DNA of 64,000 bases from positions 45,171 through 109,170 of IMG/VR virus record IMGVR_UViG_3300045241_000217; one strand, written 5' to 3'. Positions 8,829 through 36,306 of this stretch are shown piece by piece. The notes under the pieces are model-generated. The model saw only the letters and a program-made list of their open reading frames with translations, was not told where the DNA came from and made no database searches. Within the stretch, counting starts at the first letter, position 1. Each line of letters begins with the position of its first letter. The translations under genes and the position numbers were made by a program. Origin of the DNA: a virus.

Positions 8829-8866
8829 GAAACGAAAAAGGCGCCCCGGCTTTCGCCGAGAGCGCC
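8829..8866 (-). terminator. Rho-independent terminator-like hairpin in the sheath leader
   Basis: On the minus strand a GC-rich hairpin with GAAA loop (8866-8840; GGCGC...CGGC-GAAA-GCCG...GGCGCC) is followed by TTTTTCGTTTC. It lies only 24 bases before the sheath start, so it may end transcripts arriving from upstream or act as an attenuator in the sheath leader. Confidence 0.65.
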
Positions 8867-8904
8867 TCAGTGCCCACGATCGTGAGCGGGCCTACGTGAC
8901 CAGA

Positions 8905-8933
8905 CTTTGCGCCGTGCGGGGCGGTACGGTCAA
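8905..8933 (-). promoter_or_regulatory. Candidate minus-strand promoter upstream of sheath
   Basis: TTGACC (reverse of 8928-8933) is followed after 17-18 bases by GCAAAGT. An almost parallel arrangement (TTGACG, 17-18 bases, GCAACAT) lies before the prohead protease at 29890-29895, and both are followed by GGTCAC(G)TAGGCCC and a terminator-like hairpin. The repetition supports a shared late promoter/leader. The -10 element is poor, so this is a candidate. Confidence 0.35.
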
Positions 8934-8944
8934 GCCACGCGCTC

Positions 8945-9043
8945 GCGTGCTACGAATAGGTCGGCCCGCGACGCTATCAACGTCAGCGGGCCGCGCCCCA
9001 TAGCCTCCTCGAAAGGCTCCGAGACATGTCGAAAGTAGCACGC
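8945..9043 (+). ncRNA. HNH-leader RNA, copy 1
   Basis: Outer helix P1: 8945-8953 pairs perfectly (9 bp) with 9035-9043, the latter inside codons 4-6 of the HNH gene. The 5' junction reads GAATAGGTCGG. P2: 8963-8973 with 8981-8992 (11 bp, one bulged A). P3: AGCCT (9002-9006) with AGGCT (9014-9018), loop CCTCGAA; the P3 3' side carries the AAAGG ribosome-binding site 9 bases before ATG 9026. Two other copies (30154, 35638) keep the same layout. The structure is consistent with translational control of the endonuclease; no known RNA class is recognised. Confidence 0.7.
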
Positions 9044-9562
9044 CGAATCGCGGCGACACACCTTGCCGATCGTCTGTGGGCAAAGGTCGATCGCGACGGT
9101 CCGCTTCACCCTCGGCTCGGCACGCGGTGCTGGCTATGGCGTGGTGGGATTACGCGTGGTCACGGCGGGCGTGGGTATGGACAGGTGCGCGTCCCCAACG
9201 AGGGGTCTACTGGACCATCGCGGATGCTCGCCCATCGGCTCGCTTGGATCTTGACGAACGGCGACCCGCCCACCGACAAGCCCAACGTCCTGCATCGCTG
9301 CGACAACCGCGCGTGCTGCAATCCGGACCACCTTTTCGTGGGAACGCAGAAGCAAAATATTCACGACGCCGTTGGCAAGAGCAGACACCCGCACGGAGCG
9401 ACGCACGGCATGGTGCGACTGACGGAGGAACTGGTGCGCGCGGTCTTTTCGGCGATCGGAACGGACACGGAGATCGGACTTCGCTTCGGAATCTCCAGGA
9501 CACACGCAAGCCAGATCCGACTGGGCAAGAGGTGGCGTCACCTCGGATTGGTGTCGGCCTAA
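9026..9562 (+). CDS. HNH endonuclease with C-terminal HTH, RNA-leader type
   Basis: Encodes 178 aa. N-terminal module LADRLWAKVDRDGP...CWLWRGG, then AHRLAWIL, and the HNH core with zinc-binding pattern HRCDNRACCNPDHLFVGT (about residues 90-110). The C-terminus (TDTEIGLRFGISRTHASQIRLGKRW) is a helix-turn-helix for target recognition. The start codon lies inside the structured RNA 8945-9043. The stop overlaps the convergent gene ending at 9559 by 4 bases. It is probably an active homing-type nuclease inserted beside the sheath promoter. Confidence 0.9.
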   Translation: MSKVARRIAATHLADRLWAKVDRDGPLHPRLGTRCWLWRGGITRGHGGRGYGQVRVPNEGSTGPSRMLAHRLAWILTNGDPPTDKPNVLHRCDNRACCNPDHLFVGTQKQNIHDAVGKSRHPHGATHGMVRLTEELVRAVFSAIGTDTEIGLRFGISRTHASQIRLGKRWRHLGLVSA

Positions 9563-29787: not shown

Positions 29788-29830
29788 CACAAACGAAAGC
29801 GGCGACTCCAGCTTTCGCCAGAATCGCCGC
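29788..29830 (-). terminator. Terminator-like hairpin in the protease leader
   Basis: On the minus strand GCGGCGA (29830-29824) pairs with TCGCCGC (29805-29799), with an inner GGCGAAAGCT segment, followed by TTTCGTTTGTG. It lies 18 bases before the start codon and mirrors the hairpin before the sheath gene (8829-8866). Confidence 0.55.
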
Positions 29831-29902: not shown

Positions 29903-30139
29903 TCAGGAACCGTCTTCCCGCTTCTCCGTCCGGCGACTCGGTTCGCCCTTCTGCAACGCTACTCCGCGCTCCTGCGTGAGCGGCAAGATGATGCCTCCAC
30001 CACACCGCGCGCAGACCATTTCCACATCGCCCTGACGATGTAGAACGAGCATCGACGTCTTCGCCTTGAGCTTCCCTTCGTCAGCACGGAAGACCACAGA
30101 TCCGCATCCGTGTGGGCAAGCGTTCTCCGGCGCGCTCAT
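29903..30139 (-). CDS. Small zinc-ribbon protein
   Basis: Encodes 78 aa. CPHGCG...CARCGG (Cys pairs about 33 residues apart) is a four-Cys zinc ribbon. Small ribbon proteins next to head genes include Com-like translational regulators, but this link is only by size and motif. Starts at 30139, just left of the HNH leader RNA. Confidence 0.55.
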   Translation of the reverse strand: MSAPENACPHGCGSVVFRADEGKLKAKTSMLVLHRQGDVEMVCARCGGGIILPLTQERGVALQKGEPSRRTEKREDGS

Positions 30140-30153
30140 CCGGCAACCGTCGC

Positions 30154-30251
30154 CGTGCTAGAAATAGGTCGGCTCGCGAACGCCTGAGAACGTCGCGAGC
30201 CGCGCCTCGAAACCTCCTCGAAAGGTTCCAAGACATGACAGCGATAGCACG
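30154..30251 (+). ncRNA. HNH-leader RNA, copy 2 (before a decayed HNH gene)
   Basis: P1: CGTGCTA (30154-30160) with TAGCACG (30245-30251). Junction GAAATAGGTCGG. P2: 9 bp, 30171-30179 with 30193-30201. P3: AACCT (30211-30215) with AGGTT (30223-30227), loop CCTCGAA identical to copy 1. P3 and P2 carry compensatory changes against copy 1 (G-C to A-T in P3). AAAGG in P3 is 9 bases before ATG 30235. The RNA is intact although the gene it controls has lost its catalytic core. Confidence 0.7.
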
Positions 30252-30654
30252 TGCGAAGACCGGCCCGAAGCCTCGTCCGCTCGCTGAGCGTTTCTGGGCG
30301 AAGGTGGATCGGCGTGGACCCGACGAGTGCTGGCTGTGGACCGGCGGCTTCACCGAGTTTGGCTACGGTCGTATCGGTGCCGGAGGCAACACGGGGGCGA
30401 TTCTCCGCGCGCATCGCGTTGCATGGATCCTGGTCTTCGCGGCGACCGGCTCTAGCGAAGACATCGCCGCACGCAACGGAACCTCGGCGGCACACGTGTG
30501 CAGCATCAAACGCGGAGAATCCTGGCAACACCTTGGACTGCTTCGCGAAGGCCCGCCGGGTCGCACTACCCGTAACCCACGCCGACGTTTTGATCGCGAA
30601 CATGCTCTTGCGCTTCGGAGCGCTGGTGGCAGTTGGGCTAGTGTCGGTCGTTAG
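30235..30654 (+). pseudogene. HNH gene with internal deletion of the catalytic core
   Basis: Encodes 139 aa. It keeps the shared N-terminal module (LAERFWAKVDRRGPDECWLW, then LRAHRVAWIL) and the C-terminal helix-turn-helix (SEDIAARNGTSAAHVCSIKRGESWQHL region, in pieces). The entire HNH segment (H.CDN..CCNP.HL.GT) between them is missing. The frame is preserved across the gap at about residue 63. The tail after residue 100 is low-complexity basic sequence. It is probably catalytically dead; it might act as a DNA-binding protein or be decaying. Confidence 0.75.
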
Positions 30655-30734
30655 TTGGGTGTGTCTGGGACGGCCATTCGCCTGGCGCTCGTGGATGCGG
30701 CGCGCCAACGGTCCCGTCGTCAATAGAACGGCGC

Positions 30735-33775: not shown

Positions 33776-34426
33776 ATGACGGTGGTTCTCCTCTCGGGCG
33801 GCCAGGACTCGACGACGTGTCTCTTCTGGGCGAAGCGGCACCTCGGTGGCGCGAAGCCTCCGATCGCGCTCTTCGTGCACTACGGACAGCGCCACGCGCG
33901 CGAGTACGAGTCGGCGCGCGTGATCGCAGGACTTGCGGAGACGCCGTTCTACGAGGCGCGCGTGGAGTTCCCGACCGCGTCGAGCCTCACGCGCGACGAA
34001 CCGATCACGACGCGCGCGGACGGGCTGCCCTCGACGTTCGTCGCGGGCCGCAACGGTGTGCTCCTCTGGCTCGCTGGCGGGCTCGCGAAGGAACACGGGC
34101 ATGCGTCGATCGTCATCGGCTGCTCGAGCGTGGACTTCTCGGGCTACCCGGACTGCCGTCCGAAGTACCTCTATCACGAGCGTGACGCGCTTGAACGCGG
34201 GCTCGACACGCCGGACTTCCAAGTCCACGCGCCGCTCATCGATCGCAGCAAGGCGCAGACGGTGAAGATGGCGCGCGAGCTGGGCGAGACGTGTTGGACC
34301 GCGCTCGGCATGTCGTGGACCTGCTACCTCGGCGGAGAACGGCCGTGCGGTACGTGCCCGGCGTGCATGCTCCGCGCGAAGGGCTTCGCGGATGCCGGAG
34401 AGGAGGATCCGGCATGCACCCCGTGA
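33776..34426 (+). CDS. queC: 7-cyano-7-deazaguanine (preQ0) synthase QueC
   Basis: Encodes 216 aa, ATG 33776 with AGGAG upstream. The PP-loop LLSGGQDSTTCLFWA (SGGQDS, residues 7-12) and the four-Cys zinc site C183, C191, C194, C197 (CYLGG...PCGTCPAC) are diagnostic for QueC, which converts carboxydeazaguanine to preQ0 with ATP and ammonia. Phage QueC supplies preQ0 for deazaguanine incorporation into DNA. Overlaps queD by 13 bases. Confidence 0.95.
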   Translation: MTVVLLSGGQDSTTCLFWAKRHLGGAKPPIALFVHYGQRHAREYESARVIAGLAETPFYEARVEFPTASSLTRDEPITTRADGLPSTFVAGRNGVLLWLAGGLAKEHGHASIVIGCSSVDFSGYPDCRPKYLYHERDALERGLDTPDFQVHAPLIDRSKAQTVKMARELGETCWTALGMSWTCYLGGERPCGTCPACMLRAKGFADAGEEDPACTP

Positions 34427-34821
34427 CCGTCTCCATCGCTCGCGTCTACACCGCCGAGTGCTCGCACGTTCTGCCGAACGTCCCGAAGGGTCACAAGTGC
34501 GGCCGCGTGCACGGACACTCCTACGCGTTCGAGATCGAGTTGAGCGGCCGCGTGGACACCACGCTCGGGTGGCTCGTGGACTTCGCCCACCTAGACGAAG
34601 TCGCGAAAACGATGATCGTCAGCAAGCTAGACCATCACCACCTGAACGACGTGGAGGGCCTGGCGAATCCCACGAGCGAGGTGCTCGCGTTCTGGATCTG
34701 GAAGCGCCTCTCGGTTTACGGGTGGCCCACCGGCGTCTCACTCTCGCGTGTGACCGTCAGGGAGACGAAGCGCTCGTCGGCCACCATCCGAGGGGACGTA
34801 CCAGATCGCGACGGACGGTGA
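34414..34821 (+). CDS. queD: 6-carboxytetrahydropterin synthase QueD
   Basis: Encodes 135 aa, ATG 34414 with AGGAGG 6-7 bases upstream, inside the end of queC. H18, H33 and H35 (zinc ligands in CSHVLP and RVHGHSY) and the catalytic C29 (HKCG) are all present, as is LDHHHLND. QueD makes 6-carboxytetrahydropterin from dihydroneopterin triphosphate. queE and folE are not in the window, so the host or other phage genes must supply those steps. Confidence 0.95.
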   Translation: MHPVTVSIARVYTAECSHVLPNVPKGHKCGRVHGHSYAFEIELSGRVDTTLGWLVDFAHLDEVAKTMIVSKLDHHHLNDVEGLANPTSEVLAFWIWKRLSVYGWPTGVSLSRVTVRETKRSSATIRGDVPDRDGR

Positions 34822-35597
34822 CGTTCCGCTTCTACCTCGGCACGCACATGCCGAACTGGATGGCCGACGAGCGCTTCGCCGACGTGCCGCTCTTCGTCTC
34901 GCGTCGGCGTCTTGAGGAACGCAAGACGCTCCCGCGCGCGGTCGGCGACTGGGCACTCGACTCGGGGGGGTTCACCGAGCTCTCGCTGAACGGTGCGTGG
35001 CTGCTCTCGCCGAAGGCGTACGTGGCCTTCGTGCGGCGTGCTCGCGACGAGATCGGTCGTCTCTCGTGGGCCGCTCCGCAAGACTGGATGTGCGAGCCGG
35101 TGATCCTGGAGAAGACGGGGCGCACGGTCGAGCAGCACGTCGCGCTCACAGTGCAGAACCTGCTCGACCTGCGCGCGCTCGATCCGAGCCTGCCCATCGC
35201 ACCCGTCGTACAGGGCTGGACGTACGCGGACTACATGCGGTGCGTCGAGGCCTACGACCGCGCCGGCATCGATCTCTCGCGCGAGCCCGTCGTGGGCGTG
35301 GGGACCATGTGCAGACGCCAGGAGACGCACGAGGCGGAGCGCGTCCTACGCGCGTTGCGCCGCATGGACATCCGCCTACACGCGTTCGGCGCGAAGACCG
35401 TGGGCCTACAGCGCTACCACGACGCGCTCGCGTCCTCGGACTCGATGTCGTGGTCGTACCGAGCACGACGCGCCGACCCGTTGCTCGGGTGCAGCCATGC
35501 GTCGTGCTCGAACTGCCCGCTCTTCGCCCTACGCTGGCGCGAGAACGTGCTGCGACGGATGGAGCAGCCGCACCAGTTGGATCTCGTCGGGACCTAG
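34818..35597 (+). CDS. dpdA: DpdA-like deazaguanine DNA transglycosylase
   Basis: Encodes 259 aa from a GTG overlapping the queD stop (GTGA). FYLGTHMPNWM, PLFVSRRRL, WALDSGGFTELS, AAPQDWMCEP, VVQGWTYADY, GVGTMCRRQ and FGAKTVG form the tRNA-guanine transglycosylase-related TIM barrel typical of the phage DpdA family; D in DSGGF and D in APQDW are likely catalytic. It would exchange guanine in phage DNA for preQ0 or a derivative, giving resistance to restriction. A C-terminal Cys set (CSHASCSNC) may bind zinc. Confidence 0.9.
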   Translation: MTFRFYLGTHMPNWMADERFADVPLFVSRRRLEERKTLPRAVGDWALDSGGFTELSLNGAWLLSPKAYVAFVRRARDEIGRLSWAAPQDWMCEPVILEKTGRTVEQHVALTVQNLLDLRALDPSLPIAPVVQGWTYADYMRCVEAYDRAGIDLSREPVVGVGTMCRRQETHEAERVLRALRRMDIRLHAFGAKTVGLQRYHDALASSDSMSWSYRARRADPLLGCSHASCSNCPLFALRWRENVLRRMEQPHQLDLVGT

Positions 35598-35637: not shown

Positions 35638-35729
35638 CGTGCTACGAATAGTTCGGCCCGCATCGTGTGATGGCGACGCGGACCGATGCCCAACCTGATC
35701 AGAGGTCGAGACATGGCGAAGCTAGCACG
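35638..35729 (+). ncRNA. HNH-leader RNA, copy 3
   Basis: P1: CGTGCTA (35638-35644) with TAGCACG (35723-35729), extendable by G-T and C-G. Junction GAATAGTTCGG. P2: GGCCCGC with GCGGACC (one C-A mismatch); an alternative GCATCG/CGATGC helix also exists here. P3: ACCT (35693-35696) with AGGT (35703-35706), loop GATCAG, holding the AGAGG ribosome-binding site before ATG 35713. Same layout as copies 1 and 2 with different sequence in P3. Confidence 0.6.
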
Positions 35730-36306
35730 TGCGATCGATGGTCGCGTCGCAGCCAACATGGCGCGCACGCGTCCGCTCGCTGAGCGGTTCAATGAGAAGG
35801 TGGATCGCGGCGGCGGTCCCGACGCCTGCTGGTTGTGGACTGCGCACCGGCACCAAGGCTACGGGGTGATCAAGGTTCTGGGACGACTGCGCAAGGCGCA
35901 CCACGTCGCGTGGGAACTGCACCACGATCAGCCTCTGCCGGCGCTGATGTATCCGCGCTCCAACACCGTCGTCAGGCACTCGTGCGACAACCCTCCGTGC
36001 TGCAATCCGGCGCACCTGCATCGGTCCACGCAAGTCGCGAACATCCGCGACATGAACCGCAAGGGTCGGCGCCGAGGAGGGCCTCAGCCACCGCGCAATC
36101 GCTTCGGAGAGGCGAACCCGTTCTGCCGAGTCTCCGACGCCAACGTCACACTCATCCGACACTCGGCGGAGTGCGCCCGCGTCCTTGCGGAGCGCTACGG
36201 TCTGAGCCGCAGTCACGTCTACAAGATCAAGTGGGGCCTCGCGCGAACCGGTCCACCTCAGCAAGAGGGTGGCGGGGTCGTCACGACATCCCCGCAGACC
36301 GCATAG
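35713..36306 (+). CDS. HNH endonuclease with C-terminal HTH, RNA-leader type
   Basis: Encodes 197 aa; ATG 35713 preferred (AGAGG 7 bases upstream; a GTG/ATG at 35686 would lie in the RNA). LAERFNEKVDRGG...CWLWTA, KAHHVAWEL and HSCDNPPCCNPAHLHRST give the HNH core; CARVLAERYGLSRSHVYKIK is the helix-turn-helix. The 3' end overlaps the convergent virion gene by 49 bases. It lies directly after the deazaguanine cassette. Confidence 0.9.
   Translation: MAKLARAIDGRVAANMARTRPLAERFNEKVDRGGGPDACWLWTAHRHQGYGVIKVLGRLRKAHHVAWELHHDQPLPALMYPRSNTVVRHSCDNPPCCNPAHLHRSTQVANIRDMNRKGRRRGGPQPPRNRFGEANPFCRVSDANVTLIRHSAECARVLAERYGLSRSHVYKIKWGLARTGPPQQEGGGVVTTSPQTA

Follow-up and report, generated by a model that had tools for sequence, protein, structure and literature searches.

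A putative self-regulated HNH homing-endonuclease cassette with a predicted cis-antisense RNA, and a coreless copy of it, in a phage genome

Three HNH genes of a viral record are preceded by one common leader. Judging from sequence, this leader probably belongs to a self-regulated HNH homing-endonuclease cassette in which a predicted cis-antisense RNA of about 75 nt would block translation of the nuclease, and the second of the three copies would be a decaying member. The viral record comprises 109,170 bases with a G+C content of 68 percent, and the window, which is the whole stretch of DNA analysed here, covers 64,000 nucleotides of it. Five HNH genes were found in the window. Three are on the plus strand with the common leader, beginning at 8946, 30154 and 35638, and the remaining two are on the minus strand without it. 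Copy 1 consists of a cassette with a full-length HNH+HTH ORF (8946-9562, ORF 9026-9562; motifs at 8946-8952 and 9036-9042), and copy 3 of a cassette with a full-length HNH ORF (35638-36306, probable start 35713; motifs at 35638-35644 and 35723-35729). The ORF of copy 2 is coreless and encodes 139 aa (P0002, 30235-30654, plus strand). Copies 1 (1e-11), 4 and 5 matched Pfam HNH_3 above the curated cut-off, copy 3 scored below it (17.2 vs 24.8), and no Pfam match was obtained for P0002.

Two other features of the window were recorded. A DpdA-like gene (PF23859, E 1.3e-83) at 34392-35597 on the plus strand lies immediately 5' of HNH copy 3 and suggests 7-deazaguanine DNA modification. A hairpin-like motif, AAACGAAA..GGCG..CC.GCTTTCGCC, is common to 29791-29819 and about 8829-8868, just 5' of the minus-strand head maturation protease and tail sheath genes, and is possibly a late-gene leader or terminator.

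The first-pass annotation had described three perfect pairings (P1, P2 and P3) in the leader of copy 2. Direct reading confirmed all three, except that P2 has 10 bp and not 9. P1 pairs CGTGCTA (30154-30160) with TAGCACG (30245-30251) over 7 bp without mismatch, P2 pairs CGGCTCGCGA (30170-30179) with TCGCGAGCCG (30193-30202) on the sense strand, and P3 pairs AACCT (30211-30215) with AGGTT (30223-30227). Copy 1 has AGCCT/AGGCT at P3, so the compensatory change claimed there was upheld, and P2 differed between copies 2 and 1 by another compensatory change, C-G to U-A. With at most 3 mismatches, CGTGCTANNAATAGNTCGG occurred 4 times in 64 kb compared to 0.18 expected, and it was exact in the three leaders. 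The three RNA folds had z scores of -3.6, -4.8 and -1.2, each negative. The Shine-Dalgarno sequence of the HNH ORF, read as GAAAGG at 30220-30225 (plus strand), is included in P3 on the sense strand, where the fold is weak. Among the Rfam covariance models, HEARO included, none matched the window at the gathering score and none matched copy 2 at E<=1. Over an HNH leader elsewhere (L119:582-653, minus strand), a sub-threshold match to an R1162-like plasmid antisense RNA was seen (33 bits, E 0.024).

The structured RNA had been assigned to the gene's own leader, but the antisense strand fits much better, as judged by fold energies, A-C versus G-U counts and covariation. In copy 2 the antisense strand forms two 14-bp hairpins with -41.4 kcal/mol, compared to -29.2 kcal/mol for the sense strand. 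The first, at 30170-30202, is P2, with 10 bp on the sense strand and 14 bp as P2' on the minus strand; the second, P3' (30204-30234, minus strand), is perfect in copy 2 with 14 bp including G-U, covers the Shine-Dalgarno sequence and contains the 5-bp P3. From fold energy, a cis-antisense RNA of about 75-80 nt is predicted at 30160-30238 on the minus strand, with approximate ends. In a first set of leaders the antisense fold was better in 22 of 23 (mean -33.4 vs -25.1), and sequence farther 5' of the same 23 leaders showed no strand bias in folding. Among 32 cassettes from a larger set, with hairpin thresholds and start codons chosen by the analyst, there were 28 with the better fold on the antisense strand and 3 slightly better on the sense strand (p 4.6e-6). 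HNH starts without a hairpin showed the opposite tendency, 25 being antisense-better vs 46.

Base-pair changes pointed to the same strand. In the largest group, 32 interior positions read as A-C on the sense strand and G-U on the antisense strand, compared to 8 sense G-U positions; outside that group the counts were 17 and 3. Comparing G-U with A-C counts can thus reveal that a structure first seen on the coding strand belongs to the opposite one. The fold energies are those of the window copies and the covariation is that of the group X leaders. For 15 aligned leaders, the antisense consensus fold reached -25.0 kcal/mol with 21 pairs, 11 of which had changes on both sides, compared to 10 pairs and -6.4 kcal/mol for the sense alignment. 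In the antisense alignment, 93 percent of cells paired, and only 28-45 percent once the partners were slid. Double-changed cells numbered 39 vs 14.1 after shuffling; because leaders within one group are related, these counts are not independent events and the shuffle counts are not probabilities.

An unlikely alternative is a sense leader of the T4 I-TevI/mobE type, in which the mRNA would mask its ribosome binding site with hairpins of its own and there would be no antisense RNA. T4 homing endonucleases are known to have such hairpins (PMC2988022), and P3 of the sense strand does likewise pair the Shine-Dalgarno region. However, almost every leader has its weaker fold on the sense strand, with breaks at the A-C positions, and a sense leader leaves unexplained why a reverse -10-like box stands at a fixed codon position.

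That box leads to P1, which had been read as a stem. P1 was invariant across the window copies and never covaried, and the same layout in other phages carries different -10 sequences; P1 is therefore probably not a stem but, judging from these sequences, a pair of face-to-face promoter-like motifs. The left CGTGCTA (30154-30160, plus strand), exact in copies 1, 2 and 3, would be an extended -10-like element for the HNH gene. The right CGTGCTA (30245-30251, minus strand) would be the -10-like element of the antisense promoter. On the gene's strand, the latter motif is the 3' strand of P1 and falls within codons 4-6 (V/I/L-A-R). In ten long window ORFs, GTA, ATA, CTA and GCA account for 3.2, 0.6, 1.0 and 9 percent of the codons used for the respective amino acids, and the retention of rare codons in TAGCACG indicates that the nucleotides rather than the protein are conserved. 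A reverse TAnnnT was present at ORF nt 14-19 in 15 of 15 group leaders, at nt 11-16 in all 3 leaders of another phage, and at nt 7-12 in window copies 1 and 3; copy 2 was off consensus (TATCGC). Among distinct HNH starts, the reverse -10-like box was found in 32 of 52 with a hairpin vs 8 of 75 without (p 1.3e-9). In the window copies the sense -10 (TACGAA/TAGAAA) was weak, and no convincing -35 box was found on either side of the cassette.

The inverted repeat CGTGCTA...TAGCACG could instead be recognised by the HNH protein, as an operator or an end, since the 7-mers are perfect and non-covarying on both sides in three copies and I-TevI represses its own promoter (PMC2988022). We consider this improbable, because other phages hold ordinary -10 hexamers at both positions and these differ between copies. 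Two further readings of the motif were rejected. CGTGCTA as a general phage promoter gave no enrichment beyond the leaders (11 GTGCTA vs 15 expected in 109 kb), and for a sense three-way junction including P1, other phages had no comparable P1 unless both -10 boxes happened to be alike.

Leaders of HNH paralogs in other, mostly uncultured, IMG/VR phages shared the layout but not the sequence. The common order is a -10-like box, a G+C-rich hairpin, the Shine-Dalgarno sequence, ATG, and a reverse -10-like box no later than codon 7. The antisense RNA of the group X leaders was turned into a covariance model (RNA family R1), which in 393 kb of sequence produced 16 hits at E<1e-9; every one of them lay antisense over the start of an HNH gene. 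On the same strand, matches were also obtained in four cassettes outside the model-building set (7e-6 to 2e-4) and, less strongly, in two more in G005 (0.003-0.004). The window leaders were not matched by R1 on the expected strand, the only hit being on the wrong strand at 8929-8997 (E 0.008). Membership of the window family therefore rests on shared layout and not on homology, and on these sequences it may be a distant or convergent case. A search for the leader DNA pattern in viral contigs gave only 3 matches, AT-rich and attributed to chance, and an overly strict gapped pattern search gave none. In bacterial genome contigs the reverse -10 was present in 5 of 11 starts with a hairpin vs 7 of 41 without (p 0.06), an association that is only suggestive. 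Clear cassettes were found in two bacterial MAG contigs (L287 and L292). In the former, a Deltaproteobacteria cassette, CGTGCTATAAT stands at the place of the left motif and equals the window motif with a standard -10. Among cultured phages, none of the 13 HNH genes examined had the cassette, and the annotated ones were mostly in same-strand operons.

The genomic neighbours of the cassettes bear on another reading, by which the reverse promoter and hairpins would be the 5' leader of a divergent neighbour gene and restore its transcription after insertion. Many cassettes do lie just 5' of the start of a divergent gene, and that of copy 2 adjoins a minus-strand gene of 78 aa starting at 30139. 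This reading is nevertheless distinctly unlikely, as the layout persists in copy 3, L110, L174 and L244, whose upstream genes have the same orientation as the HNH gene, the RNA moves with the HNH gene between sites, and a terminator-like T-run follows P2' in L240 and L244. One group of uncultured phages (G010, G015, G039, G008 and G032) carries several HNH cassettes each. Several of these lie beside the same genes in more than one phage, a pattern consistent with site-specific homing.

The coding region of copy 2 was compared with that of copy 1. By tblastn against the window, residues 13-76 of copy 1 aligned at 30280-30432 and residues 140-176 at 30433-30543, the two matches abutting. The junction thus lies at 30432|30433 on the plus strand, and copy 1 residues 77-139 (9254-9442), 63 residues, are absent in frame. 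The claim that copy 2 lacks the HNH segment in frame therefore held in the assembled record, with every catalytic residue gone, and the alignment to a full-length relative placed the ends of the deletion. In the AlphaFold model of copy 1 (pLDDT 84) the lost part comprises most of HTH helix 1 and the HNH beta-beta-alpha core with its H-C-D...C-N-P-H-L motif. At the copy 2 junction, the end of HTH helix 1 directly follows the helix AHRVAWIL. A Foldseek comparison gave I-PpoI as the best match, which was weak (E 0.04). The N-terminal module was aligned and HTH helices 2 and 3 remain at 30433-30543 on the plus strand (tblastn 2e-5 vs copy 1 residues 140-176), so that "part of the HTH" was a fair description. 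Beyond them, in the C-terminal tail at 30544-30729 on the plus strand, the frame weakly resembles a second HTH interrupted by TAG at 30652-30654. This candidate was rejected, since HTH_23 gave only E 0.05 and another search gave no match. A frameshifted HNH core, named by the first-pass annotation as evidence against its reading, was looked for across the 109-kb record, as was a detached one, and both were absent. In a synteny comparison, the nearest relative phage found (42 percent identity) had no comparable HNH gene.

Other coreless copies were rare and unlike each other: 3 clear cases, copy 2 included, were found among 173 N-module domain hits, and the junctions of the other two, L061 and L054, differ. 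These two HNH relatives without the catalytic core are from G038 and G031; one is an N-module with the HTH end only, and in the other the N-module is joined to another kind of domain, which resembles a winged helix. In G032, one of the best-scoring antisense RNA copies (L159:1834-1912, 79.6 bits) is intact over an HNH ORF split by stop codons or a frameshift. Together with copy 2, an intact RNA with a dead nuclease therefore occurs at least twice. The rarity and dissimilarity of coreless copies and the intact RNA over the broken ORF point to decay, the simplest account of copy 2. Of the two origins first proposed, the in-frame internal deletion stands and selection of a minimal element or regulator is needless. 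It is quite unlikely that copy 2 is a selected, nuclease-free DNA-binding regulator whose RNA is kept on purpose. The junction is in frame, HTH helices 2-3 are present and the RNA hairpins are perfect with a compensatory change; but HTH helix 1 is mostly gone, the coreless protein was modelled poorly (pLDDT 54), the other coreless copies are few and have junctions of their own, the reverse -10 has diverged and the TAG may be premature.

In the antisense cassette we propose, the 85-100 bp 5' of the gene would be a portable cassette that controls a free-standing HNH homing endonuclease of phages. The sense promoter would drive the nuclease mRNA, and a reverse promoter within the first 4-7 codons would produce a cis-antisense RNA of about 75 nt. 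This RNA would run back over the start codon and Shine-Dalgarno sequence, fold P3' and then P2', and end close to the sense promoter. By pairing with the mRNA it would prevent ribosomes from entering, possibly also trigger RNase III decay, and so keep the nuclease low; collisions of RNA polymerases between the facing promoters would add repression. In copy 2 an in-frame deletion would have removed the nuclease core, and the hairpins would still be intact either because this happened recently or because erosion has not yet reached them. Transcription, repression and mobility of the cassette are what we infer here. More tentatively, and with a little less than an even chance, the cassettes may represent an undescribed widespread class of phage homing-endonuclease units with their own intragenic-promoter cis-antisense RNA, in which, when the nuclease dies, the orphan RNA could act in trans on intact sister copies. 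The novelty of this class is provisional, the literature covered being open-access papers. If true, a transferable antisense-RNA cassette would be one general answer to the control of free-standing endonucleases, it would explain how several nuclease copies coexist in one phage without harm, and it would provide a sequence signature by which further cases could be found.

According to a review of T4, it is not obvious how most free-standing endonucleases are controlled at translation (PMC2988022). In the T4-type leaders of I-TevI, segB and Aeh1 mobE, structured start regions likewise limit the expression of phage homing endonucleases, but those leaders hide the ribosome binding site in a hairpin of the sense mRNA (PMC2988022), whereas the structure of the window cassette is best on the antisense strand, with a putative reverse promoter in the ORF. 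An antisense RNA from an intragenic reverse promoter also covers the ribosome binding site in SymE/SymR and type I toxin-antitoxin units, which may have a nuclease under their control, such as the DNase toxin of RalR/RalA (PMC3874152, PMC4147584). The cassette, likened to these units by its predicted layout, differs in that its protein is an HNH_3 homing-type endonuclease. IS10 RNA-OUT and IS200 art200 are also short structured antisense RNAs over the start of a mobile-element DNA enzyme (PMC5006887, PMC12594629), which is a transposase there and an HNH endonuclease here. By analogy with SymR, RNA-OUT and art200, an antisense block of the Shine-Dalgarno region would fit all the cassette evidence. 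Reverse promoters inside the nuclease gene reduce its expression in EcoRI and Eco29kI as well, but these are restriction-modification systems for which a small conserved two-hairpin RNA is not described (PMC3874152). The start-associated sequences (SAS/ESAS) of Cluster K mycobacteriophages likewise recur close to gene starts within a phage genome and contain inverted repeats, but they precede many unrelated gene families (PMC3203893), whereas the window cassette precedes only HNH genes.
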